Origin: a virus
IMG/VR virus record: IMGVR_UViG_3300034280_000343
Location: 1-20,083 of that record
DNA length: 20,083 bases
Reading direction: 5' to 3' (one strand)
Shown in pieces: positions 353 to 19,510 of the stretch. A model generated the notes under the pieces. It saw nothing but the letters and a program-made list of their open reading frames with translations, made no database searches and was not told where the DNA came from. The position numbers and the translations under genes were made by a program. The stretch's first letter is position 1. Each line of letters opens with the position of its first letter.

Positions 353-2826
353 TGGCATATAATTTCAATAATATAAGTTTAGAAAGTGTTGATAGTGCAG
401 GTAACACGTTAATGACTGCCTTGACTTTTACAGCTACAACCATTCCAGTATTGACTGAATATATGGCTATTGGTAACAGAGTTAAATTAACTTTGAGTGT
501 TGATGCTTCTGCAGGTGATGATTTTACTGATAAATGCATGAGAATAAATTTAGGATTATTTGTTAACAACAATGATGCTAATGCATTTCAATTTGGTTTT
601 GATTCTTTAGTATTTTTAACAACTTCTCCAACATTGTGTAGTTTTGTTGTTGGTACTGATCCACAGGCACCAAGCAGACATAATTTCATAGGTACAATGG
701 AGCGAAACATGGCAAGTACAGAAGCTACAATTGTAATTGAATTTTTTGTTACTACTGATTTATTAAATTATGTTTCAAGTAGTTTTAGTGTAAGCAATGA
801 AAGGAGATTTTTGAGTAATGAATTAAACACAAATTTTTATCCGTTAATAAACAGAACTCCATCTGTATATAGAAATGGTTCTAACATTGGTGTTGTTGGT
901 CAGGTATATGATTTTGCAACATTTGTTAAAAGTATTTTTAATGGTGCAGGTTCAAAATTTATGTTAATACCAGTTCAAAATAGATGGTATAATTCAGACT
1001 ATAATAATCCATCTGGAACATTACGTTTTATTAAAGAGATTGAAATAACCTGTCCATCACAAGTTGCATTGAATTTACCAAGTGTTACAGATATAACAGC
1101 TACATCTGGTCAGGGATTTGTTCAAAGTACAGATTCTGCATTTACAATTGTTAGTAATCAGCTATCATTATTTGAAGATAATAGTGTTAGGATTTTAATG
1201 AGTGGATTGGCTAAGACTGGAATAGTTACTAATCCACCTGTGACTGGAATCAAAGCAACTGTAATAAGACTGGATGACATATCCAATACTCAAGATATGT
1301 TTGTTGATCTGCAGATGTCTGATGTTGAAATACCACAGCTTGCTGTTGCTCCTGCATTGTTAGATGGAATAATTTATACTCCATCTGATTGGTTTGAAGA
1401 TGTTCCTAATCCAGATGATGTAGAAGTACAGTTTATTCTTGATGGAACACAATTAAGTCCTAATGGCAGGTATAGAATTATTATCTGTGTTTATGATGAT
1501 GCTAATCAGGATTATGTTACATCACATATTACACCAGAATTGACTGCTACTTATGTTGAACCAGTTGTGCCTACAATAACAGGTTACATGAGTGTTTATA
1601 ACAAAGAATTTAGTGGTAATGAATTAACTGTTAGTCCACATCAGCGTGTAAAAGCTACAATTGAAATAGACAAGACAAGTTACAATGCTCAATTAACAGC
1701 ATTAGGTATAGTAGGTGCTTTTGATGGTTCTTTGTTTAATGTTAATTGTGCTTTGACTGCAAGACCGAATGCTTTTACACCAACGCAAGGATATTTTGCA
1801 AATACCTTAACACCACCTTTGAACAATGAAATATTGACTTCAAACATGGTAAAGAAAACTGATAATGCAACAACATTAAGACTAGAAGCATTATTTAGGA
1901 TTGAAGAAGAATATGCAAATACATCAAACATATTTACCTGGACATTAAATTTTAATCAGCCTACATTTACAATTGGTCAGACTACATTAAACAGAATTAT
2001 ATTTGAACAGAAACTGGATGTTACTAACTTTGAAAATGATGTATTTGCACCTAACTTATTAGCTGTTAGATTCTATGATGCTGATTTATATCCTGCATCA
2101 AAAGTGCCTGTATTGAATATTTGCAACAAACGTTATTTAGTTGCAGAGGTAGAAAAAGACCCTGGATTCACAGGTACAATAAATCTGGTTGCCACAATTT
2201 ATCCTGCAAACAGTTTAGGAGCAACAACAAGTAGTGCAATTGAAGAAGAAGAAGATTGGGTACCATTCACAATACAGATGGCTCAAGAATTTAGTGGTAA
2301 ATTGGATTCAGTAGAAACAAGTTTTGGTTCTGATGATTTTGCTTCATTTGTTATTAACGTTAATCAGTTAACACTTGGTCAGGAATATTGGGTAACTGCC
2401 ATAGCATTCCAGACTGATCCTGACTATTGCCCAATTGGGTTGACTAACAACATCAAAATAGATACAATTAACTTTACTGGTGGTTGGAATATAACAGTTG
2501 ATCTAGGATTCTTAATAACTGAAATATTAGCACATCCTGACTATGTTGGTGGTATTAACAAAGCACGTTACAGAGTTATTGATCCACCTACAAATGTATT
2601 AGTAGGAACAACACAAACAATAGTAGGTAGTGTTTTAACTGTGTTAAATATCCGTTCAAGTACACCATCAGTATTATTACAGGTTCAAGTTGATGCGGAT
2701 TTTGACCCAGGTACTGGACCACATACAGTTAGACATGAATTAAATTTAGTAATAAATTTACCTGCATACGGACCAATTACTACTAATTTAGATACAAATA
2801 GTTATATTTGCATTGACCTTGGATAA
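352..2826 (+). CDS. Large beta-rich virion structural protein, 824 aa
   Basis: This frame encodes 824 residues starting at an ATG that overlaps the preceding stop. The sequence is dominated by Thr, Ser, Asn, Val and Ile in alternating patterns, with few Lys or Cys, as in proteins made of stacked beta-sandwich domains. Similar segments appear at intervals (for example GLFVNNN near residue 70 and ITGYMSVYNKEFSGNE near 410), which suggests several Ig-like units, though I cannot prove internal repeats by eye. There is no signal peptide or membrane segment. Between a virion gene fragment and a tail-type gene, it is most likely a tail, baseplate or appendage protein. I do not recognise the family. 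Confidence 0.8.
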   Translation: MAYNFNNISLESVDSAGNTLMTALTFTATTIPVLTEYMAIGNRVKLTLSVDASAGDDFTDKCMRINLGLFVNNNDANAFQFGFDSLVFLTTSPTLCSFVVGTDPQAPSRHNFIGTMERNMASTEATIVIEFFVTTDLLNYVSSSFSVSNERRFLSNELNTNFYPLINRTPSVYRNGSNIGVVGQVYDFATFVKSIFNGAGSKFMLIPVQNRWYNSDYNNPSGTLRFIKEIEITCPSQVALNLPSVTDITATSGQGFVQSTDSAFTIVSNQLSLFEDNSVRILMSGLAKTGIVTNPPVTGIKATVIRLDDISNTQDMFVDLQMSDVEIPQLAVAPALLDGIIYTPSDWFEDVPNPDDVEVQFILDGTQLSPNGRYRIIICVYDDANQDYVTSHITPELTATYVEPVVPTITGYMSVYNKEFSGNELTVSPHQRVKATIEIDKTSYNAQLTALGIVGAFDGSLFNVNCALTARPNAFTPTQGYFANTLTPPLNNEILTSNMVKKTDNATTLRLEALFRIEEEYANTSNIFTWTLNFNQPTFTIGQTTLNRIIFEQKLDVTNFENDVFAPNLLAVRFYDADLYPASKVPVLNICNKRYLVAEVEKDPGFTGTINLVATIYPANSLGATTSSAIEEEEDWVPFTIQMAQEFSGKLDSVETSFGSDDFASFVINVNQLTLGQEYWVTAIAFQTDPDYCPIGLTNNIKIDTINFTGGWNITVDLGFLITEILAHPDYVGGINKARYRVIDPPTNVLVGTTQTIVGSVLTVLNIRSSTPSVLLQVQVDADFDPGTGPHTVRHELNLVINLPAYGPITTNLDTNSYICIDLG

Positions 2827-4778: not shown

Positions 4779-6509
4779 ATGAATATAGAACAATATTTGG
4801 AGTTCATGGATGAAATTGCAGTTGGATTATTAAGTCCACCAATACATCCGTTTAAAGAGGAATGGAAGCGCATTTACGAAGAGATTAAACCCCATTTCTA
4901 CGGCAAAGTACCACCTGTTTTAGATGTTGCTTTCCCCAATGAAGAACCAAATATTTTAAATTACAGAAAAGCTACCTATCAGCCAAAGACAGAATCACCA
5001 CTTGTCAAGGCAATAACTGAACTGAATAGGTTGTTGAGTTCTGCAAAGCATTCCATAAAGTTTGAGAATATGGAGATGCAAAAGTATATTGAAGATAAAA
5101 AGTTTGGTGATCAGGATTTGACCAGATATTTTTTCAATATATTTATTCCTAACAGGATATTAGACCCGAACGCTGTTTTGTTGGTTAATCCTGTAAACAT
5201 AGTTGACGAAACACAAAAGGTGGATATTGAATTGTCAATAGTGCCATCTGACCGAATTATATTTAATGACCCTGACTATAAGCTGTTAATATATAAGGGT
5301 ATCAATAAGAAAAAATACAGCACGTTTGCATTACAGCAGCCACTTTGGTATCATGTTATAACAGATGAATTTTATGCTGAAATTAGAAGCATTGATGGTA
5401 AATCTGAATTGACTGTATTGTATCAGCATGAATCTGGTTTAATGCCTTGGATAACTTTGGGTGGTAGAGCAGTTCCACAATATGATATTTATGGTAATAC
5501 ATTTGTTGTTTATAAATCTGATTTTAGTCCTGCTATCCCTTATTTGAATGATGCTGCTATCTTTGACAATCAGCATAAATCAGTAATGTTATCAACCTGT
5601 TTCCCTATCAAATTTGTTGAGGGTGTTGACTGCCATAGCTGTCATGGTGTTGGTTACGTTATGGATAAGAATGACCATGACCACACAATAAGCTGTAATA
5701 CCTGTCATGGACATGGTAAGATATTATCTATTAGTCCGCTAGCTGCTTATAACATCAATCCGACTACAAACAGATTTCCAGATGCTAATGCAAGTACACC
5801 TGTTGATCCTATCAGATTCTATTCTCCTGACACTTCTACAATTGAGTTGACTAAGACTGTAGCCAATGAAAGTTTGTTGAAAGCAGAGAATGTATTGAAC
5901 CTAAACAGGACCATAAATTCTGTTCAGTCTGGTGTGGCTAAAGAGATGGACAGAGAATCTGAATATATTGAGATTGGTAAAATATCAGATGATGTTTATA
6001 GTAAATTAGAAGATTTGCTTTATATTATCCAGGGATTAGTTTTCATGGATAATGATAGCATGATAACGGTTAATAAGCCTATCAGTTTTGACTTAAAATC
6101 TGAAACAGAATTGTTAGCAGAGTTTACAGCATCACAGAAAGGACAGCCTGCTGCAATCAGATATGAAGCATACAGAAACTATATGGATAGAAGATTTAGT
6201 TCTGATGCTGTAGCCAGACAGATTGCTGATATTTGTGCAATGTACACTTCAATCTATCTATACACACCAGATGAAATTAATGTCATGATTGGTACTGGTA
6301 GCATTACTCAAGAAGATGCAGTAAAAGCTACATTTGTTTTTGATGCTGTTACTACATTATACTATGTTGAGAATTACGACATAATGACTAATGATTTTAA
6401 TGCTATCAATAATGAATTAGACCGTATCTTAGCACCTAAATTAGAATCAGCACAAAGTGTAATATTACCCGAACAACAAAGTTTTGAAGAGCAGAATCCA
6501 CCTGAATAA
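4779..6509 (+). CDS. Portal protein with inserted DnaJ-type zinc module, 576 aa
   Basis: The 576-aa length, acidic and helical composition and position just before a MuF-like gene fit a phage portal, the dodecameric ring at the DNA entry vertex. The C-terminal half has the long helical stretch usual for portals (about 365-470). The oddity is a pair of CxxCxGxG motifs, CHSCHGVG at residues 285-292 and CNTCHGHG at 306-313, separated by a His/Asp-rich loop (DKNDHDH). This is the pattern of DnaJ zinc fingers and should bind at least one zinc ion. A/T-rich bases precede the start, which sits 12 bases after the terminator T run. Portal identity rests on size, composition and gene order rather than on a decisive motif. 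Confidence 0.75.
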   Translation: MNIEQYLEFMDEIAVGLLSPPIHPFKEEWKRIYEEIKPHFYGKVPPVLDVAFPNEEPNILNYRKATYQPKTESPLVKAITELNRLLSSAKHSIKFENMEMQKYIEDKKFGDQDLTRYFFNIFIPNRILDPNAVLLVNPVNIVDETQKVDIELSIVPSDRIIFNDPDYKLLIYKGINKKKYSTFALQQPLWYHVITDEFYAEIRSIDGKSELTVLYQHESGLMPWITLGGRAVPQYDIYGNTFVVYKSDFSPAIPYLNDAAIFDNQHKSVMLSTCFPIKFVEGVDCHSCHGVGYVMDKNDHDHTISCNTCHGHGKILSISPLAAYNINPTTNRFPDANASTPVDPIRFYSPDTSTIELTKTVANESLLKAENVLNLNRTINSVQSGVAKEMDRESEYIEIGKISDDVYSKLEDLLYIIQGLVFMDNDSMITVNKPISFDLKSETELLAEFTASQKGQPAAIRYEAYRNYMDRRFSSDAVARQIADICAMYTSIYLYTPDEINVMIGTGSITQEDAVKATFVFDAVTTLYYVENYDIMTNDFNAINNELDRILAPKLESAQSVILPEQQSFEEQNPPE

Positions 6510-6512
6510 TAA

Positions 6513-8030
6513 ATGGCAGATTTAGATAAACCATACAGAATTACAGAAAGGGTTAACGGTATATTAGAGAAAACACTAAATACCGTTGAACCTAAATTTG
6601 TTAAGCAGGTAGTTGAATGGGTTGGTAAGTTCCAGACATCTTCTGGTAACTTGACAAGGTCTAAATCAAATAAGGATAGGATAGCAACTTTTAAGACAGC
6701 CATTGAAAGACATCTTCAACGTGCAGGTTATTATGACATGATTAGTAAGTTTCTTGTAGGATTTGATGAAATGTCAGCAGCACAAACGGAGATTCAACAA
6801 GATCTAAATGCTATCAGTTTAACAAAAAGTTTTTTGAATACCTTCAAACGTGTTGCAATAAATCAGGTTATTACTAACATGGAAAAACAAGGATTATTAA
6901 CAGCTTTAATAAATCCTTTGCGTAATCAGTTAAACATTGCAGTTAATCAGGGTAGTTCATTATCTGATACTGTTGCATCCATCAGAGGTCAGTTAGAAAC
7001 TACAGAGAAAAGACAGGGTATATTGAAGAAACTTAGTCTGCAGTCAACCAGAGATGCATTAGGGCAATATGATGGAGTTGTGAATGAAGCAGTCCGTAAA
7101 ACTTATAAACTTGATGCAATTTTATATGTTGGTAGCTTGGTTAAAGATTCACGTGCGCAATGTGAACGTTGGACACAATACATGGATAACGGCAAGCGTG
7201 GTCTGATACTATTTGAACAGCTTGAACAGGAAATAATGTGGGCTGATGCAAACGGTACTGGAATGATACCTAACACTACTCCAGAGAATTTCTGTCAAAA
7301 TCGTGGCGGTTTTAATTGCAGACATGTAGCCTATCCTGTTAGGAATCCGAATAAGATTACAACGGCAGGCAATGTTAGTGAAAAAGTAGATGCTGATATA
7401 AGTGCAAAGGAGCAACAGGCAGCAATACAGAAACTAAAAGTACCAGAAGTTAAGTTAGGTTTTGATAAAAAATATGATGATTTTATTAATAATGAAGAAA
7501 TTACTGATGAAGCTAAAATATTAATTGATAAATTAGAAAAACCTAAAGATATTATATCAAATAAAAAAGGTTCATATTATATTGCTTCTGATAAAAAAAT
7601 ATACATGGATAAAAATGATAAAAAAGATGTTTTTACACATGAATATGGACATCATATAGATAATATATCAAATAGAGTATCTCTAAGTAAAGAATTTATA
7701 CAAGCATCTAATGATGATGGTTTATATTTAAAAAATTTATTTAAAGGACAAAATTTATATGAAGAATTAAGAAAAGAATGGAAAGGTAAAAGAGAATATT
7801 ATGGTGCATCAGATATTTTAGATTCTTTATCAGCTGGTTTATTTTTTGATAAATATTATATGCCAGGTCATGGTAAAAGATATTATAAAAATAAAGAATT
7901 AAGACATAAAGAAAATTTTGCAAATATATTTGAAGCATGGTCAAAATCAGATAAAAATTCAATAAAAAATATAGAAAAATACTTTCCAAATCTTTACAAA
8001 GAATTTATTAAAATTATTGAAACATTATGA
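6513..8030 (+). CDS. MuF-like head morphogenesis protein fused to a C-terminal HExxH metallopeptidase (toxin-like) domain, 505 aa
   Basis: Residues about 1-285 look like a MuF/SPP1 gp7-type minor head protein. They are largely helical and end in the family's typical elements: DSRAQCERW at 212-220, then the NRGGFNCRHVAYPV block at 263-276 with C261, C269 and H271. From about residue 310 the composition changes to Lys, Asp, Asn and Tyr with much lower G+C. This C-terminal part contains HEYGHH at 376-381 (an HExxH zinc-peptidase site: H376, E377, H380), then DILDSLSAG at 434-442, GHGKRYY at 452-458 and KENFANIF around E467, a likely third zinc ligand. Such C-terminal enzyme domains on MuF proteins are described as polymorphic toxins of temperate phages. 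The domain could instead be a virion protease acting on host or cell-wall targets. The 64-aa gene overlaps its stop. Confidence 0.85.
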   Translation: MADLDKPYRITERVNGILEKTLNTVEPKFVKQVVEWVGKFQTSSGNLTRSKSNKDRIATFKTAIERHLQRAGYYDMISKFLVGFDEMSAAQTEIQQDLNAISLTKSFLNTFKRVAINQVITNMEKQGLLTALINPLRNQLNIAVNQGSSLSDTVASIRGQLETTEKRQGILKKLSLQSTRDALGQYDGVVNEAVRKTYKLDAILYVGSLVKDSRAQCERWTQYMDNGKRGLILFEQLEQEIMWADANGTGMIPNTTPENFCQNRGGFNCRHVAYPVRNPNKITTAGNVSEKVDADISAKEQQAAIQKLKVPEVKLGFDKKYDDFINNEEITDEAKILIDKLEKPKDIISNKKGSYYIASDKKIYMDKNDKKDVFTHEYGHHIDNISNRVSLSKEFIQASNDDGLYLKNLFKGQNLYEELRKEWKGKREYYGASDILDSLSAGLFFDKYYMPGHGKRYYKNKELRHKENFANIFEAWSKSDKNSIKNIEKYFPNLYKEFIKIIETL

Positions 8031-8661: not shown

Positions 8662-9495
8662 ATGGAATTTTTAAAAACAGTAGTAGAAAAATTAGGGTTT
8701 GATCCTGAAACATTGGATAAGCTATCCAAAAATGAATTGCCCATTGATGATGCTGTCAACGGTTACGTTTCAAAGATTGAAAAATCTGTAACTGAAAGAC
8801 TTGCAAGACAGATTGAAGAACAGAAGAAAACAGAATTGTTTGGTGCTGCCTATGCTAAGACAGAAAAGCAGATTGCAGATGAGTTTCAATTGGATTTGAG
8901 TAAATATGACACAGTAGATAAAAAAGACCGTTACAGAACGATTCTGAAAGATTTAAAACAGCAGCAGTTTGAGATGGTCGAAAAGCTGAAACAGGAATAT
9001 ACCACAGCGGACCAACAAAAATTACAGCAACTTACACAGCAACTTGAATTAGCTAATGCAAAGCTGAATGAGAAAGAAAGAATGATGCAGGATGCTATTA
9101 TGCAGGAACAGAATAAATTCAAAGACTATCTTAAAAATAATCAGATTGATGGAATCAGAAATAAACTGGTTGAATCAATTAAGAATCCAAGATTAACACC
9201 AAAAGAAATGAGAGCAGTTTTTGAAGCTGATGTGCGTGAGAATGGATATACTTTTGAACTTGACCAGGATAATAATGTCTGGGTTAATAAGGATGGTAAT
9301 AGGGTTAAACATCCATTGAAGCCTACAGAGAATCTGAAATATGAAACATTGTTTGAGATTGTTTCTACTGAAAATAATTTTGTTAAGCAGAGCAATGCTA
9401 CAGATAATACAACTAAGTTTGTGTTTGAAGAAAAAAGTAAAGATGGAATACATCCTGCAAGATTAAAATATCTTCAAGAACGTGGATTGATATAA
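8662..9495 (+). CDS. Putative capsid scaffolding protein, 277 aa
   Basis: The protein is highly charged and helical. Residues about 85-160 are rich in Gln, Glu, Lys and Leu with heptad-like spacing (LKQQQFEMVEKLKQEY, LTQQLELANAKLNEKERM), predicting a coiled coil. The N-terminus holds a short helical domain (EFLKTVVEKLGFDPETLDKL). Residues about 190-240 look like a small mixed domain (VRENGYTFELDQDNNVWVNK), and the end is basic (HPARLKYLQERGLI). Coiled-coil architecture, lack of Cys and position between the portal/MuF genes and the capsid gene are typical of scaffolding proteins. No separate prohead protease gene is recognised here. A terminator follows at once. Confidence 0.78.
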   Translation: MEFLKTVVEKLGFDPETLDKLSKNELPIDDAVNGYVSKIEKSVTERLARQIEEQKKTELFGAAYAKTEKQIADEFQLDLSKYDTVDKKDRYRTILKDLKQQQFEMVEKLKQEYTTADQQKLQQLTQQLELANAKLNEKERMMQDAIMQEQNKFKDYLKNNQIDGIRNKLVESIKNPRLTPKEMRAVFEADVRENGYTFELDQDNNVWVNKDGNRVKHPLKPTENLKYETLFEIVSTENNFVKQSNATDNTTKFVFEEKSKDGIHPARLKYLQERGLI

Positions 9496-9503
9496 AAAAA
9501 ATA

Positions 9504-9527
9504 GCCTGCAATTACGCAGGCTTTTTT
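9504..9527. terminator. Terminator between convergent plus and minus operons
   Basis: GCCTGC (9504-9509) pairs with GCAGGC (9516-9521) around a six-base loop, followed by six T on the plus strand. The mirror side has a run of A (9494-9501), broken by T9502, that could serve the minus strand. It lies between the stop of the scaffold candidate at 9495 and the stop of the 35-aa minus-strand gene at 9529, so it probably works in both directions. Confidence 0.85.
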
Positions 9528-9528
9528 G

Positions 9529-9636
9529 TTAGTGGTTTTTATCTTCAAAATATTGGTCTGGATGTTCATCTTTTGCAGAAACTAAACCAATCAGAATACA
9601 AAATATAGCTATTGTCAAAATCATTATAGAAGTCAT
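9529..9636 (-). CDS. 35-aa single-span membrane microprotein
   Basis: On the minus strand an ATG at 9636-9634 opens 35 codons to a TAA at 9531-9529. The product starts MTSIMILTIAIFCILIGLVS, one clear transmembrane segment or uncleaved signal anchor, followed by a short acidic polar tail (AKDEHPDQYFEDKNH). It is the last gene of the minus-strand block and its stop abuts the terminator. Single-span microproteins of this kind can act as membrane modulators, but no family is recognised. Coding status rests on the clean hydrophobic/polar layout and on filling the gap exactly between terminator and next gene. Confidence 0.6.
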   Translation of the reverse strand: MTSIMILTIAIFCILIGLVSAKDEHPDQYFEDKNH

Positions 9637-9647
9637 AGTATTTATAT

Positions 9648-9986
9648 TTAATCAAGTGAAAAAAGTGGATACATCTTAGCTACCTGTTCTTTTGTTCGGG
9701 TAACACGTATTGCTTTCCCCCATTGAAACTTCCAGTTATGTAGTGCTGAATCCTGATCTTCAACTGAATTGTAAATAAAAATAATACGGTAATATTTCTT
9801 ACCATTCACTTCTGCTATTTCTACCATAGCAGGATCGTACATCATTATAAAATATTCTGGTTTGAGCAGTTCTGGATTTTCTGTTGAAACAACTTGAACA
9901 CAATAGTGTAAACCAGTTTTTTCTGTTTCTTGAGAGAATGCTGAAACAGTTAAAAGCATTGCAAGGATAAAGATTAATGTTTTCAT
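9648..9986 (-). CDS. Exported protein with SPOR-like fold pattern, 112 aa
   Basis: Residues 1-19 form a classical signal peptide (MKTLIFILAMLLTVSAFSQ) of the kind common in Bacteroidota, so the mature protein should reach the periplasm. Residues about 24-100 show the order of elements seen in SPOR domains: a first strand with HYCVQVVST, an intervening helix region, a central GKKYYRIIF strand, and a final AIRVTRTK strand. SPOR domains bind glycan strands stripped of stem peptides at division sites. The match is by pattern only, and the region is short. It is in the minus-strand accessory block and its leader contains TTAACACAC just before the ATG. A host-directed periplasmic role is inferred. 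Confidence 0.75.
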   Translation of the reverse strand: MKTLIFILAMLLTVSAFSQETEKTGLHYCVQVVSTENPELLKPEYFIMMYDPAMVEIAEVNGKKYYRIIFIYNSVEDQDSALHNWKFQWGKAIRVTRTKEQVAKMYPLFSLD

Positions 9987-10007
9987 GTGTGTTAATAGTT
10001 TAAAATA

Positions 10008-10247
10008 TTAAATAAAAGAATTACAAAGTTCCCAGTCTAATCTGTCTTGTTCGTTTAAAGCATTGCAACAGATTTTATAAAGTTCTGATTCTGTGATATT
10101 AAATTGTTGTGCTAAGGGTTCTAAATCTTCATTTATTTGCCAGTGTGCAGGTTCATATTCGTCATTGAATCCATCTCCACAATGAGGATAGTAATTGCCA
10201 GAAATGAGGACAGTTTGACCGTTAATGATGATAGTTGTGTGTGTCAT
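10008..10247 (-). CDS. Small acidic hypothetical protein, 79 aa
   Basis: This 79-aa acidic protein starts with MTHTTIIINGQTVLISGNYY, a likely pair of strands. A HCGDGFNDEYEPAHW segment follows, then a helical part (LEPLAQQFNITESELYKICC). There is no signal peptide or membrane segment. The first seven codons and the leader before them form a 21-base tandem duplication (10227-10268), so the native start could once have been at codon 8, now ATT. It belongs to the minus-strand accessory block. Function is unknown. Confidence 0.68.
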   Translation of the reverse strand: MTHTTIIINGQTVLISGNYYPHCGDGFNDEYEPAHWQINEDLEPLAQQFNITESELYKICCNALNEQDRLDWELCNSFI

Positions 10248-10268
10248 GATGATAGTTGTTTTGTGTGT
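10227..10268 (-). repeat. 21-base tandem duplication spanning a start codon
   Basis: GATGATAGTTGT occurs at 10227-10238 and again at 10248-10259, exactly 21 bases apart, each followed by GT-rich sequence. On the minus strand this reads as two copies of an ACAACTATCATC leader, one ending in ATG (the start codon) and one in ATT at codon 8. The duplication adds seven in-frame codons to the gene. Confidence 0.6.
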
Positions 10269-10269
10269 G

Positions 10270-10506
10270 TTATTTAATAGAAAATTTTTTGTCTATGTTA
10301 TATACTTCAATATTTAATGTTTTTACAAATTCTCTTATTTGTTCTCTACATAATTCTTTATTATCTTCATCAGTAACTTTTACTTTGTATTTTTTTGTAT
10401 TTTTAGAAACTGGAAATAAGTTACCGTTTACATTATTAGTTTCTTGAATTGAGATTGTAATAACATTGTCATCCCAGTTTGTGCAGTCATAAATTCCGTA
10501 AATCAT
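10270..10506 (-). CDS. Small hypothetical protein, 78 aa
   Basis: The 78-aa product begins MIYGIYDCTNWDDNVITISI, which suggests beta strands. A basic segment follows (KNTKKYKVKVTDEDNKE), then a C-terminal amphipathic helix (REQIREFVKTLNIEVYNIDK). It has no export or membrane signal. Its leader on the minus strand, AACACAAAAAATTAAAATT before ATG, is nearly the same as that of the 70-aa gene upstream. A hairpin with a T run separates it from that gene. Function is unknown. Confidence 0.68.
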   Translation of the reverse strand: MIYGIYDCTNWDDNVITISIQETNNVNGNLFPVSKNTKKYKVKVTDEDNKELCREQIREFVKTLNIEVYNIDKKFSIK

Positions 10507-10527
10507 AATTTTAATTTTTTGTGTTTT
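10507..10527 (-). promoter_or_regulatory. A-rich translation leader (copy 2)
   Basis: Read on the minus strand this is AACACAAAAAATTAAAATT directly before the ATG. It matches the leader at 10781-10803 at 17 of the first 18 bases counted from the start codon. Bacteroidota ribosomes rely little on Shine-Dalgarno pairing, and A-rich leaders raise translation, so a ribosome-loading role is likely. Confidence 0.5.
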
Positions 10528-10554
10528 AAAAAATAGCGGTTTAAGGCTGACCGC
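10528..10554 (-). terminator. Possible weak terminator inside the minus-strand block
   Basis: On the minus strand GCGGT (10554-10550) pairs with ACCGC (10540-10536) around a nine-base loop, then TA and six T (10533-10528). It lies between the 70-aa and 78-aa genes. With only five pairs it would be partial at best, reducing transcription of the distal genes. Confidence 0.42.
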
Positions 10555-10567
10555 AAACCTGTTTATT

Positions 10568-10780
10568 TTAAAAATCTAACCCTAAATCTTTACATTGTTT
10601 TGAAAAAGTTTCATTCAAATAAATCAAAACATCATCAGTTAAAAACCTATCTTTAGAACAATAAAACAAATTAAATAAAATTGTCTTTGCATCTTGTTCT
10701 GATTCCATTGTAAAAATATCTAAAATGGCATCTCTTTTTGATGTGTAAACTTTTCTTGTGATTTCTGTTGAAGTTGTCAT
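10568..10780 (-). CDS. Small helical hypothetical protein, first gene of the minus-strand block, 70 aa
   Basis: This 70-aa protein (MTTSTEITRKVYTSKRDAIL at the start) is nearest the minus-strand promoter, so it should be the most transcribed member of the block. The sequence is mostly helical (FTMESEQDAKTILFNLFYC, VLIYLNETFSKQCKDLGL) with no signal or membrane segment and no DNA-binding motif I can identify. It has an A-rich leader and a hairpin after its stop. G+C is low here. Function is unknown; an early-expressed accessory or host-interaction protein would suit the position. Confidence 0.68.
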   Translation of the reverse strand: MTTSTEITRKVYTSKRDAILDIFTMESEQDAKTILFNLFYCSKDRFLTDDVLIYLNETFSKQCKDLGLDF

Positions 10781-10803
10781 AATCTTAATTTTTTGTGTGT
10801 TAA
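10781..10803 (-). promoter_or_regulatory. A-rich translation leader (copy 1)
   Basis: On the minus strand this reads TTAACACACAAAAAATTAAG then ATT before the ATG. The TTAACACAC part recurs just before the start of the SPOR-like gene, and a similar ACACACACAAAAC precedes the 79-aa gene. It probably recruits ribosomes to the unstructured A-rich stretch. Confidence 0.5.
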
Positions 10804-10829
10804 TAATTCCGTTTGCGTTAATGATGAAT

Positions 10830-10860
10830 CAAAGATACTACTGTTTTTTATTTCTGCAAA
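10830..10860 (-). promoter_or_regulatory. Bacteroidota-type promoter driving the minus-strand block
   Basis: On the minus strand TTTG (10860-10857) is followed, after a 19-base spacer, by TATCTTTG (10837-10830). These match the Bacteroidota -33 TTTG and -7 TAnnTTTG boxes exactly, at the usual spacing. Transcription would begin roughly 30-45 bases before the ATG of the 70-aa gene. Confidence 0.65.
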
Positions 10861-10881: not shown

Positions 10882-10912
10882 TTTTTTTCTGCAATATTAA
10901 CAATTATCTTTG
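10882..10912 (+). promoter_or_regulatory. Probable promoter of the major capsid gene
   Basis: TATCTTTG at 10905-10912 matches the -7 box TAnnTTTG and is identical to the box of the divergent promoter. At the matching distance upstream the -33 position holds TTTT (10882-10885) rather than TTTG, inside a nine-T run (10880-10888). It would give a leader of roughly 100 bases before the capsid start. Confidence 0.5.
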
Positions 10913-10940
10913 TTTTTGTAAGTCCTCTCACACTTATACG

Positions 10941-10978
10941 ATGCTCAAAGCATAGATTTTGTCGCTTTTTGGTAGCGA
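10941..10978 (+). promoter_or_regulatory. Two leader hairpins in the capsid gene 5' UTR
   Basis: ATGCT (10941-10945) pairs with AGCAT (10949-10953) around CAA. TCGCT (10962-10966) pairs with AGCGA (10974-10978) around a seven-base loop. The second has the same loop size and stem position as the hairpin before the tail gene at 3798-3816, with a C-G pair in place of T-A. A long A/T stretch follows up to the ATG at 11025. Confidence 0.42.
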
Positions 10979-11024
10979 ATTTATACCAACAATATTTTTC
11001 CAATTTTAAAAATTTATTCAAATA

Positions 11025-12740
11025 ATGAGTATCAAATTAGCTGATGCGTGGAAAATTATAGACCTCACGCTCAATAATAACAACGGCATGCGTTCCATGC
11101 CATCTCCGAACATTGGACTTTTACAGCTTCTTACATCATCTGCTAACCGTGCTGCATCAAGAGTTAAACTTGGTAACGTACAGGCTATTGACCGTGGTGA
11201 TGGAAAAGTTTATAAAGTTTCACGTTCTTTCTTTCCAAGATTAGGACAGGTTAACAACGCTTCTGTAGAATATTGTCCTACAGATGGTGATGTTATCAAA
11301 CCTTTATTTGATGAAGTAGAAATCAAGAATCAGACTGTTTCAAGAAAAATCAAAATTGACGATGAGTTAATGAGATGTATTAAAGAAAACAGAGCAGATT
11401 ATCAGAATGCTTACATCAATGAAGTATTAAGAAACCACATTAACTTGTTAGGTCAGCAGGTTTCAACTGTTGTTGGTACTAATGGTTATATCGGTGGCTT
11501 TCCTAAATGTGATTGTGATAGCACACCTGCTGCTTGTCTTGATTTGCCATTGTTCATTTCAACTGGTTTAGGTATCAATCCTGTAGGTGAATCAATCCTT
11601 GATTCTATCAGAAAGCAGGCTGAAATTGATCAGCAGTTAGTTCTGGTTGGTGGTACTTTGCTTGACCAGTACAGAAAAGCACGTGCAATTGCATCTGGTA
11701 ATGATAACGGTTTTGATGCTTCTCTTTTGGACATCACACGTTCAATTTACTATGATACGCACATACCTGCTGCTATGGGTGGTAATAATAAAATTATCGC
11801 AATGGCTCCAGGTGCGCTTCAATTGATTACTTATGCTAAAAATCAAGGTCAATTCTCTTATGAGTTTGAAGACCAAATGAGAACAACTGTAGTTGACCCA
11901 TGGTTAGGTCTTACTCATGATGTTTACATGTCTTATAGCAAGTGTAATGCTGAAATCGAACTTTACATCCAGTTTGTTACGAATTGGGCAGTAGTTGGGA
12001 TGCCAAAATGTTGGTCTGCTGATGATTGCTTACTTGAAAACGTTCTTGATGTATTCTGTTTTGATGTTGTATGTGCTGATACTGGATATTGCGATATTGA
12101 AGCTGCATGTGGCAAAACATCTGTTTCTGCTCCTACAACTGCTGTATTCTGTGATAGTGCTGAATTATGTGTATCTCCATGTGATGCAGGATTTGTTTCT
12201 GAATGTGGTGGAGTTTACAATGTATTCAATTATGTAGGTTCAACATATGAAGAAGTAAGTGCAGTAGTGATCAATGGTATTCCTATCAGTTTAGGTGGTG
12301 TATTTGACTTGACTACATCTTCTGGTGGTAATGCTTTCATGGTTGCTTTGCAGGCTGCTCTTTCTAACATACCAAGCATTCTAAGTGTTTCTGGTGGTTG
12401 GGATGGTACACAGACAGTTGTAAACATTGTAACTAACAATACAATTTTGACTATCAGCTTATTTGATAATGCTGCAGGTTATATTGCTTTGTATCTTGAA
12501 GTATCTGAACTTTGTCACATTGTTAGCACATCTGTAGCTTCTACTAATGCAACGTTGACAAATCTTGATTGGACTGCTCCAGGACCTGATACTTTTGATG
12601 GTGCTCCAGGTGCAACAATCTTTACAGCTGGTTATGTTGGTACATACAGTAATTTCTTTACTAACAATGATGGTGCTTATCAGTTAGTAATTACAGATTC
12701 TGTTGCTTGTACTGATACTTACAATGCTACAGTAGGATAA
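11025..12740 (+). CDS. Major capsid protein with Cys-rich linker and C-terminal extension, 571 aa
   Basis: Its position after the scaffold, with its own promoter, structured leader and following hairpin, suits the most abundant virion protein. Residues about 1-325 have the look of an HK97-fold capsid protein: a helical N-terminal arm (DAWKIIDLTLNNN), an E-loop-like segment (GDGKVYKVSRSFFPRLGQV), a long helical part (RADYQNAYINEVLRNHINLL), and a P/A-domain core ending about NWAVVGMPKCW. Residues 329-394 carry ten cysteines (329, 335, 345, 350, 356, 362, 376, 382, 386, 394). Residues about 398-571 are a Thr/Ser/Gly-rich beta extension, probably surface-exposed like a decoration domain. No separate protease or decoration gene is recognised in this window. 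The fold call is by pattern and context. Confidence 0.82.
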   Translation: MSIKLADAWKIIDLTLNNNNGMRSMPSPNIGLLQLLTSSANRAASRVKLGNVQAIDRGDGKVYKVSRSFFPRLGQVNNASVEYCPTDGDVIKPLFDEVEIKNQTVSRKIKIDDELMRCIKENRADYQNAYINEVLRNHINLLGQQVSTVVGTNGYIGGFPKCDCDSTPAACLDLPLFISTGLGINPVGESILDSIRKQAEIDQQLVLVGGTLLDQYRKARAIASGNDNGFDASLLDITRSIYYDTHIPAAMGGNNKIIAMAPGALQLITYAKNQGQFSYEFEDQMRTTVVDPWLGLTHDVYMSYSKCNAEIELYIQFVTNWAVVGMPKCWSADDCLLENVLDVFCFDVVCADTGYCDIEAACGKTSVSAPTTAVFCDSAELCVSPCDAGFVSECGGVYNVFNYVGSTYEEVSAVVINGIPISLGGVFDLTTSSGGNAFMVALQAALSNIPSILSVSGGWDGTQTVVNIVTNNTILTISLFDNAAGYIALYLEVSELCHIVSTSVASTNATLTNLDWTAPGPDTFDGAPGATIFTAGYVGTYSNFFTNNDGAYQLVITDSVACTDTYNATVG

Positions 12741-18591: not shown

Positions 18592-19073
18592 TGATATTTA
18601 TTTACATTTTAGTTGTAGCTTGCTGTATTAAATTTCTGCATTATTGCATTGGATCTCCTATCCAGGGTGAATTTTATTCTGGTAGAATATTTTCAAGCTA
18701 TGGTAGATGGATTTCATACAAGTATAACGATTTTGAAGAAAGAGAAAAGAAACGTGTTTATTCGGTTTTTGAGACATGGAAACATGCAATGGATATAAAG
18801 TTACAGAATGATTTAAAAACTGCAGCACAGACCGAAACAGAAGCTATTTATAAGCATTTTGTAGAAACAGTTGACAAGGAATATAAAAGAATAGAACATA
18901 AAATGAAGCCTAATCCATTCAGCATGTTAGGTGCGTGTCCAATATGTTTTGGAACATGGGTAGGGTTAATTTTATGGACAGCAATATGTTTATTAAATCC
19001 ATTTCAATTATGGTGGATTTTAATAGGTTCTCCCACATCAGTTGTTTTATCACGTTATATTAAAATTCAATGA
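18588..19073 (+). CDS. Membrane protein of the lysis cassette with CPIC motif, 161 aa
   Basis: Residues 2-20 are hydrophobic (MMIFIYILVVACCIKFLHYC), a likely N-terminal membrane anchor. A long charged helical middle (about 45-108, with EEREKKRVYSVFETWKHAMD and many Lys/Glu) follows. Then come GACPICFGTWVG around C117 and C120 and two probable C-terminal spans (about 121-156). CPIC-F-G-x-W is a short element of small membrane proteins such as DUF1360-type; metal or redox use is possible. It sits between endolysin and holin with ATGA overlaps on both sides. It could be an accessory holin or a spanin-like protein, but a spanin would normally have a different shape. Confidence 0.72.
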   Translation: MMIFIYILVVACCIKFLHYCIGSPIQGEFYSGRIFSSYGRWISYKYNDFEEREKKRVYSVFETWKHAMDIKLQNDLKTAAQTETEAIYKHFVETVDKEYKRIEHKMKPNPFSMLGACPICFGTWVGLILWTAICLLNPFQLWWILIGSPTSVVLSRYIKIQ

Positions 19074-19510
19074 AACACATTTTACTTTTTACAGGAATTG
19101 GACTTACTACAGAGTTATGCAAAGAAATAGATGTAATGAAACCACTTATAGTTGGTTTGTTTATTTTCTTATTGTTAGATCTGATTACAGGAATCAGAAA
19201 AGCAAGTATAAATAAACAGGCTATTACATCTTTAGGATTGAGAAAATCACTAAGCAAATTTTTAGAATATTCTATTGCAATCTTAGCATCTCAAGTATTT
19301 ACATTCATATTTAAACTGGACATTACATTGTCCTATTATGTAGCTTTGTTTATTGCTACAATTGAATTGAAGTCTATATTTGAAAATATATCTGAAACAA
19401 CTGGAATAAATCTTTGGAAAGTTGTTAGAAAACTGATTCCATCAATATCACAGTTAGAAGAAGAAAAGAAAAAGAAGAAAGAGGATAATAAACCAGAAAA
19501 CAATGGCTGA
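19070..19510 (+). CDS. Holin (phage holin family 4 type), 146 aa
   Basis: Residues about 24-42 form a hydrophobic segment ending in LLLDLITGIRKA, the D-x-x-T-G-I element typical of this holin family. Two more hydrophobic stretches follow (about 66-84 and 87-105: YSIAILASQVFTFIFKL, ITLSYYVALFIATIEL). The C-terminus is a long charged tail (EEEKKKKKEDNKPENNG), probably cytoplasmic. It would form the membrane lesions that let the endolysin out. It overlaps the upstream membrane gene as ATGA and the next gene by eight bases. No dual start or antiholin is evident. Confidence 0.82.
   Translation: MKHILLFTGIGLTTELCKEIDVMKPLIVGLFIFLLLDLITGIRKASINKQAITSLGLRKSLSKFLEYSIAILASQVFTFIFKLDITLSYYVALFIATIELKSIFENISETTGINLWKVVRKLIPSISQLEEEKKKKKEDNKPENNG

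Follow-up and report, generated by a model that had tools for sequence, protein, structure and literature searches.

The five small genes that run against the late operon in the window (the whole 20,083-nucleotide stretch of viral DNA analyzed here, positions 1 to 20,083 of IMG/VR record IMGVR_UViG_3300034280_000343) are best read as an accessory, moron-like unit that occupies an insertion hot spot, would be transcribed by the host machinery apart from the late program, and may supply an exported 112-amino-acid (aa) protein that binds septal glycan; we give this reading a probability of about 60%. Phage morons are accessory genes that carry their own promoter and terminator and are inserted between core genes. 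The block shares with them an autonomous promoter and terminator and presence or absence among relatives, but it differs in comprising five genes where one or two are typical, in being always reversed, in belonging to a lineage without sign of lysogeny, and in using a single site at which many cargo types are found.

A cassette site between head genes

The block is flanked on the left by a scaffold-like coiled-coil gene (8662 to 9495, plus strand) and on the right by a capsid-like gene (11025 to 12740, plus strand), both named by position only. Neither protein had a convincing match in family databases or the PDB, the fold prediction for the capsid-like protein was poor (pLDDT of 30), and searches with the capsid and portal proteins against 50,697 phage records, at an E value limit of 1e-5, returned no match. 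Both flank genes could be located at 64 loci, of which 48 are empty, with only 167 to 260 nucleotides (nt) in the gap, and 16 are filled by cargo of 631 to 3256 nt that is always reversed and falls into six types. Locus L005 stands outside this set because no scaffold gene was found before its contig end, and L067, L068, and L079 stop short of the capsid gene. The empty-site junctions are clean (222 of 228 matches for L009 and L013, 232 of 238 for L030 and L025), and a phylogeny of the scaffold gene that includes 63 of the 64 loci (L011 was too short and was left out) places cargo type D at five separate positions, as the starred branches demand.

With 48 of 64 sites empty, 16 holding varied reversed cargo, and a promoter and terminator belonging to the block itself, these sequence comparisons lead us to conclude that the locus is a moron-like cassette site. 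The comparisons also demonstrate that cassettes with their own reverse-strand promoter have been gained, lost, and exchanged at this site, which is bounded by the terminator of the scaffold gene and the promoter of the capsid gene. A core virion function for the block was rejected given its absence from the 48 empty loci. Comparison with related phages, which the first-pass annotation had named as a check, thus reveals that the block is not fixed family-wide, yet in the clade to which the window belongs all 7 loci hold cargo, so it may be fixed there.

Free-standing homing endonucleases could also keep such a site variable, with intergenic homing dragging cargo in and the small genes hitchhiking along. 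GIY-YIG-type proteins (MUG113/T5orf172) are indeed cargo in L060 and L053, and another type of cargo, distinct from these and weakly matching ParB/GmrSD-like proteins, recurs at five places in the tree. Among the cargo proteins scanned, however, nuclease genes were limited to L060 and L053; no nuclease-like match was obtained for the window's five block proteins or for the small cargo scanned in L043 and L059, and the SPOR gene described below is subject to strong purifying selection. We consider homing an unlikely account of the site.

Transcription signals and lifestyle

Five genes opposed to the late operon, with a promoter of their own and a shared terminator, had been described in the first-pass annotation, and each of these elements was recovered. 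The block promoter (10830 to 10860, minus strand) was identified by pattern match together with conservation and is of the Bacteroidota type, TTTG-N19-TATCTTTG, the consensus for this phylum being given as TTTG/TANNTTTG (PMC6847099). The pattern is weak when only the window is considered (3 matches against 1.19 expected, with 10 of 100 shuffles reaching 3). The minus-strand pattern TTTG-N18-21-TAnnTTTG nevertheless occurs in 15 of the 16 filled gaps, whereas none of the 16 has it on the plus strand, and shuffled gaps show it 0 to 7% of the time; L060 lacks the exact pattern. It is this conservation across filled gaps, and not the window match by itself, that makes the block promoter convincing at the sequence level. 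At the other end, a bidirectional intrinsic terminator (9503 to 9522, both strands), with a stem of 7 to 8 bp and T-runs on either side, is common to the scaffold-like gene on the plus strand and the reversed block on the minus strand.

The boundary of the block is marked by the -7 box (TATCTTTG; 10905 to 10912, plus strand) of the divergent capsid promoter, which is present as TAT[CTA]TTTG in all 64 loci and lacks a matching -33 box in 63 of them. Because the block promoter is complete whereas the capsid promoter has no -33 box, host RNA polymerase would be expected to transcribe the block early or continuously, separately from the late program. The proposal of a moron-like unit independent of late expression is supported at the level of anatomy, by the autonomous signals, the interchangeable cargo, and the many empty sites.

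The suggestion of prophage expression is not supported. A lysogenic conversion role, in which a prophage-expressed block protects or alters the lysogen, would be in keeping with a host-type promoter that is independent of the late genes, but neither a tyrosine integrase (PF00589; 0 of 10) nor a resolvase (PF00239; 0 of 10) was found in the relative contigs, which are classed as linear and are fragmentary, perhaps incomplete, and no capsid relative was confirmed among 84,980 species genomes. On these grounds lysogenic conversion was rejected as the main reading, and we regard it as highly improbable. The phage probably represents a virulent, uncultured lineage infecting Bacteroidota, and the earlier interpretation as a whole is partly supported.

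Gene content of the block

Between the two plus-strand flank genes lie five ATG-started minus-strand open reading frames (ORFs) of 70, 78, 79, 112, and 35 aa. The 70-aa ORF (10568 to 10780) has distant relatives in just two other phage contigs (L126 and L127; 38 to 39% identity), and the 78-aa ORF (10270 to 10506) is an orphan with a weak match to phrog_10844 (function not assigned) and zero confirmed relatives in an IMG/VR search; these two are consequently the less certain genes. The 79-aa ORF (10008 to 10247), which adjoins the SPOR gene in L001 and L002 too, and the 35-aa ORF (9529 to 9636), a probable small membrane protein with a single hydrophobic stretch, were both found again in those two loci, and the latter is conserved at 84% over 19 aa there and at 94% over 35 aa in L067 and L068. 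The 112-aa ORF (9648 to 9986) is predicted to encode a secreted protein in which a signal peptide is followed by a SPOR-like (RNP-fold) domain spanning residues ~25 to 105. It is the best-conserved cargo of the block, and dN/dS values of 0.056 to 0.19 support coding and indicate strong purifying selection, so that a chance ORF was rejected.

Searches of Pfam, NCBIfam (four of the five proteins, the 35-aa one being left out), PHROGs, and PADLOC yielded no confident match for the block proteins. Taken as a whole, the gap has a lower GC content than both the scaffold and the capsid genes in all 16 filled loci, but the 112- and 79-aa genes match the late genes (0.33 and 0.34 in both cases). A minor feature is a CACA-rich leader repeat that precedes several of the block genes (6 matches where 2.05 would be expected; as many were reached by 2 of 100 shuffles).

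A predicted secreted protein with a SPOR-like fold

The signal peptide of the 112-aa protein was judged by eye, and an AF2 model (pLDDT of 82) predicts an RNP-like beta-alpha-beta-beta-alpha-beta fold. Foldseek searches with this model placed SPOR domains at ranks 1, 2, 5, 6, and 9, with E values of just 0.009 to 0.045, and superposition on the RlpA SPOR domain bound to denuded glycan (6i09) gave 1.9 Å over 72 residues with a Z score of 8.5, a value barely past the range that the structure tool terms common. Two residues, Gln31 on strand 1 and Arg67 on strand 3, are invariant in 22 of 22 relatives. The first is in register with RlpA Gln270 in the structural alignment (27 aligned to 266), a residue reported as the most conserved glycan contact (PMC6895207), and the second was equated with FtsN Arg285 by motif only.

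Sequence-level support for the SPOR identity is weak. Of 22 relatives, 8 weakly matched the Pfam SPOR model (PF05036), the strongest with an E value of 0.0039, and the window's own protein gave no match to it at an E value of ≤1; PDB profile searches with SPOR family alignments recovered no SPOR chain, returning spurious proteasome chains or nothing. The protein had no match among 50,697 phage records at an E value limit of 0.1, and a scan of genome contigs for close patterns, which host SPOR proteins may escape, confirmed no relatives. A match to PriA_C (E value, 0.0063) was dropped, being present in 2 of 22 relatives only and unfit for a secreted protein. In common with the SPOR domains of RlpA, FtsN, DamX, DedD, and CwlC, the modeled protein has an RNP-type fold, and it shares with SPOR domains an invariant Gln, a Ser three residues on, and a strand-3 Arg, positions for which roles are described in PMC6895207; it differs from them in standing alone behind a signal peptide, with neither membrane anchor nor enzyme, in being too divergent for a clear Pfam match, and in belonging to a family found here in phage contigs only.

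Transfer of the SPOR gene and its relation to lysis genes

The history of this gene departs from that of the head genes around it. The window's 112-aa protein is ~80% identical to those of L074 to L077, whose head genes are unrelated, and is 61% identical to its counterpart in L001, though the L001 capsid is 97% identical; likewise, L094 and L101 have different head genes and 112-aa relatives that are 94% identical. These comparisons establish, as far as sequence relationships go, that the protein is transferred among phages whose head genes are unrelated. The SPOR phylogeny includes 49 of 54 loci and the window, with L073, L119, L123, L124, and L125 left out.

The SPOR protein might instead belong to a lysis or wall-remodeling module, in which it would set the timing of lysis by guiding or restraining the phage's exported glucosaminidase on denuded glycan. 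A glucosaminidase gene is present in the flank examined at 28 of 49 SPOR loci and is on the same strand in all 28, a neighborhood that counts for the septal-glycan reading too, and L053 holds the SPOR and glucosaminidase genes inside one reversed block. The enzyme is encoded in 10 of the 10 family contigs searched, but contigs without a SPOR gene at the site keep it as well, and the pairing is therefore not an obligate one; moreover, 21 of the 49 SPOR loci have no glucosaminidase in the flank examined (some flanks are short), and the window's holin (19070 to 19510; PF05105) is distant from the block and on the opposite strand. A role in such a module seems somewhat unlikely.

Proposed action at the septum

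Under the accessory-unit reading, the 112-aa protein would reach the periplasm by export, and its SPOR-like sheet could there bind septal glycan strands stripped of stem peptides. Because it carries neither an enzyme nor a membrane anchor, it may act as a competitor or cap at the division septum, displacing host SPOR proteins and delaying septation or, alternatively, shielding denuded glycan from lytic enzymes. Overproduction of DamX is reported to stop division (PMC4981707). An effect of the block on host physiology through a secreted SPOR-fold protein is plausible, and we rank division interference ahead of wall-hydrolysis tuning, and the latter ahead of superinfection exclusion. The last of these would have the exported protein mask septal glycan or SPOR-protein sites used for entry by other phages. 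The reported cross-link between T4 gp27 and DamX, a SPOR protein, and the reported fall in T4 yield to ~40% when damX is missing (PMC11054660) lend this some appeal, but PADLOC models matched none of the 10 block and cargo proteins scanned, and we judge it quite improbable.

Lambda Kil, P1 Icd, and T7 Gp0.4 resemble the 112-aa protein in being small phage proteins, with a stop on host division as the proposed effect. These three are described as acting on FtsZ inside the cell, whereas the 112-aa protein would target the septal wall from the periplasm. More tentatively, and at odds that we place below even, freshwater Bacteroidota phages, unrelated ones included, may trade, via cassettes next to head genes, a stand-alone secreted SPOR-fold decoy or cap for denuded septal glycan, a weapon against cell division or wall hydrolysis that is directed at the wall and not at FtsZ. 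The hot spot would allow host-acting genes to be gained, swapped, and lost in a probably virulent lineage while head production is undisturbed, and the 112-aa protein is a candidate phage effector acting at the cell wall.

A putative structured leader of the capsid mRNA

The mRNA of T4 gene 32 has an autoregulatory pseudoknot leader. The capsid mRNA carries a putative structured 5' leader (10918 to 10987, plus strand), which adjoins the block, lies outside it, and consists of a hairpin and an H-type pseudoknot; like the gene 32 leader, it places an H-type pseudoknot upstream of the gene for an abundant phage protein, and it differs in having no Rfam match and in belonging to a gene adjoining the block. 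The alignment (A7) comprises 29 of 37 distinct segments and the window, whose segment is that of L001; eight near-copies were omitted, and five rows (L005, L047, L059, L001, and the window) were trimmed at their ends. Pairs were counted on this third alignment, the earlier two having misplaced L047 or cut L005. Since thermodynamic folding was no better than that of shuffled sequences (z scores of -0.39, -0.01, and -0.43), the case for the leader is one of covariation, with 348 of 348 cells paired and two-sided changes at 8 of 12 pairs. Should this leader be regulatory, it would represent a new type of capsid-control RNA for Bacteroidota phages.

Structure and promoters of the reversed block

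Minus-strand ORFs of 70, 78, 79, 112, and 35 amino acids occupy positions 10780 to 9529 of the window, a viral record 20,083 bases long, which confirms the five small genes that the first-pass annotation saw reversed between scaffold and capsid genes. The flanking scaffold-like (8662 to 9495, plus strand) and capsid-like (11025 to 12740, plus strand) genes are named by position; their products had no convincing match in family or profile searches, and structure prediction for the capsid-like protein gave an unusable model. Slightly upstream, the product of the gene at 6513 to 8030 (plus strand) matches head morphogenesis family phrog_4728 (4e-9) and carries a metalloprotease-like HEYGHH motif in its C-terminal part. 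This part looks exchangeable, since most relatives align over only about the first 280 to 310 of 505 residues, and the protein perhaps resembles the toxin-tailed MuF proteins. The putative portal protein (4779 to 6509, plus strand) has a DnaJ-like cysteine repeat, CxxCxGxG, at residues 276 to 317 (NCBIfam DnaJ_bact, E = 7e-4).

The promoter and shared terminator proposed for the block are both present: a single, complete Bacteroidota-type promoter, TTTG-N19-TATCTTTG, lies at 10860..10830 (minus strand), and a bidirectional terminator at 9503 to 9522 marks the block end. The Bacteroidota consensus is TTTG/TANNTTTG (PMC6847099), and from the promoters alone we infer a Bacteroidota host. The divergent capsid promoter has its -7 box at 10905 to 10912. 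A TAT[CTA]TTTG-type box is present there in 64/64 loci, whereas TTTG at proper spacing upstream of it occurs in a single one of these (L046; L numbers denote IMG/VR loci with relatives of the capsid-like or 112-aa protein). Of the 16 reversed cassettes, by contrast, 15 possess the full promoter, and so the two divergent units are probably under different control. Several block genes are preceded by CACA-rich leaders (AACACACAAAA-like; 10259 to 10801, minus strand), a pattern with 6 matches in the window (2.05 expected).

A variable cassette site in a probably virulent lineage

A scan of IMG/VR with the capsid recovered 66 loci encoding relatives, with both flanking genes visible in 64, window included. 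Comparison of presence and absence at this position found the scaffold-capsid gap empty in 48 loci (167 to 260 nt) and filled in 16 (631 to 3,256 nt), always with cargo on the minus strand. The SPOR gene, which encodes the 112-aa protein, occurs in the window and in L001 and L002 (type A), where the latter two also encode a core resembling class II tRNA synthetases (PF00152, E = 1.3e-14); with other small genes in L047 to L049 and L059 (type B); and in L053 with a glucosaminidase (PF01832, 1.9e-33), a GIY-YIG type MUG113 protein (4.5e-10), and others (type C). The remaining cargoes are a single protein in L009, L030, L032, L045, and L061 (type D; the two scanned, L009 and L030, gave weak, below-cutoff GmrSD_N or ParB-like matches), MUG113 in L060 (type E, 1.6e-15), and a 76-aa protein in L043 and L056 (type F). 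This synthetase-like core, cargo of the window's closest relatives (in L001 at 1770 to 2651, minus strand), is free-standing and AsnS/asparagine synthetase A-like by NCBIfam.

On a quick tree of 63 scaffold proteins (SH-aLRT support only), the filled or empty state requires 8 changes, with gain and loss indistinguishable, and type D appears at five places separated by starred branches. Ungapped comparison of 12 filled/empty locus pairs gave near-perfect junctions in four, running from the scaffold terminator T-tract to an AT-rich stretch upstream of the capsid promoter (L009/L013, 222/228 matches; L030/L025, 232/238; L061/L012, 229/238; L060/L006, 220/226), and poorer matches (136 to 211) in the other eight. 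The window's own clade (types A and B) is filled in 7/7 loci, which counts against free gain and loss. The deep branch L053 also carries cargo, so that the filled state may be the ancestral one, with loss in the large clade. The cassette structure, variability among relatives, and conserved promoter largely uphold the description of the block as moron-like.

The suggestion that it might be expressed from a prophage fared less well. Ten contigs of 33 to 47 kb contained neither integrase (PF00589; positive control, 14/14 genomes) nor resolvase (PF00239; positive control, 10/14 genomes), no capsid relative was confirmed among 84,980 species genomes, and neither capsid nor portal matched any of 50,697 phage records (E limit, 1e-5). 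We read the lineage as uncultured and probably virulent. The SPOR protein likewise had no match in those records (E limit, 0.1).

A predicted SPOR-fold protein exchanged between phages

Like its relatives, the 112-aa protein (9986 to 9648, minus strand) starts with what looks by eye to be a typical signal for export: Lys, a hydrophobic stretch, and small residues before Gln. Its AF2 model (pLDDT 82, alignment of 7 rows) retrieved SPOR domains at Foldseek ranks 1, 2, 5, 6, and 9 (best E, 8.6e-3); VIA-align superposed it on the SPOR domain of RlpA bound to denuded glycan at Z 8.5 (1.9 Å over 72 residues), the top non-SPOR row reaching Z 6.7. Gln31, Thr35, and Arg67 are invariant in 22/22 relatives, Ser34 is kept in at least 90%, and most members have an aromatic residue two before Arg67. 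Gln31 aligns in register with Gln270 of RlpA, which PMC6895207 describes as the sole glycan contact that is highly conserved. Ser34 takes the position of DamX Ser354 and FtsN Ser254, and Arg67, with that aromatic residue, fits FtsN Trp283/Arg285 by motif (PMC6895207). Pfam SPOR did not match the window's protein and matched 8/22 relatives weakly (best E, 0.0039), so that sequence-level support for this identity is thin. Eight of nine comparisons gave dN/dS values of 0.056 to 0.19, which shows purifying selection; the remaining one was saturated, and synonymous sites were near saturation in several other pairs.

Relatives of this protein are encoded at 54 loci. Among the 49 whose head genes were examined, 10 carry the window family, 36 a different head module (recognised by eye as a ClpP-like protease plus a different type of capsid), and 3 were unassignable; a search for the window-family capsid came up empty in 9/9 contigs with the other module (searched whole, no positive control). 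Head genes oppose the SPOR gene in direction in 10/10 window-family loci and in 10/36 of the other module. Besides the near-copy L072, the nearest proteins to the window's are those of L074 to L077, which have the other head module (~80% identical), whereas L001 shares 97% capsid identity with the window and only 61% in the 112-aa protein; those of L094 (window family) and L101 (other module) are 94% identical. We read the SPOR gene as horizontally exchanged between phages. In 28/49 SPOR loci, a glucosaminidase gene lies in the examined flank, always on the same strand (28/28), yet the enzyme is encoded somewhere in 10/10 family contigs searched, with or without a SPOR gene at the block site. 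In another phage family (L085, L110, L078, and similar loci), islands of a SPOR gene, secreted glucosaminidase, and small genes adjoin protease-capsid genes, partly on the opposite strand.

Cassette structure, variability, conserved promoter, selection, and exchange are established, as is the SPOR fold at the level of a model. We propose that the block would be expressed early or constitutively, and that the 112-aa protein would be exported and bind denuded septal glycan, thereby affecting the host in some way. SPOR proteins made in excess can interfere with cell division, as when overproduced DamX causes filamentation (PMC4981707). The protein might alternatively act in superinfection exclusion, for which the sole lead is that T4 needs DamX for full yield, reaching about 40% without it (PMC11054660). 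Phage accessory cassettes are a known kind, and phage endolysins with SPOR domains are recorded; a literature search brought up no stand-alone secreted phage SPOR protein. What appears new is that the hot spot is reversed and takes many cargoes in a lineage that is probably virulent, together with a putative stand-alone secreted SPOR-fold cargo.

A conserved RNA in the capsid leader

Outside the block, and setting its right-hand limit, the 5' leader of the capsid mRNA (10918 to 10987, plus strand) can form a hairpin together with an H-type pseudoknot made of two interleaved 4-bp helices; it begins near the expected transcript start and is conserved in relatives. All 348 of 348 cells are paired across 29 distinct rows, a percentage that leans towards the structure because it was drawn by eye from those sequences. 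Two-sided changes occur in 8/12 pairs (20 cells), against a mean of 1.6 pairs in shuffles, and the signal is lost when partners are slid. These changes arose in several distinct lineages: window/L001, L005, L047/L059, and the L022/L037/L044 type. Folding energy, taken alone, is not distinctive. Rfam held no matching family (window region, L003, L014, L046, and L053), and a literature search on such leaders yielded general works and no counterpart. The leader is a candidate new cis-regulatory RNA that may regulate how the capsid mRNA is translated or how stable it is. A model omitting the pseudoknot helix found one strong copy per contig in 10/10 contigs (other matches all E > 0.1) and, in 22 other loci searched alongside the window, nothing better than E = 0.3, which is no strong match. 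Scanning with a sequence pattern located the leader in 56 contigs; at 46 additional loci, the capsid gene follows within 200 nt in 43, two end too soon, and one is a chance match.
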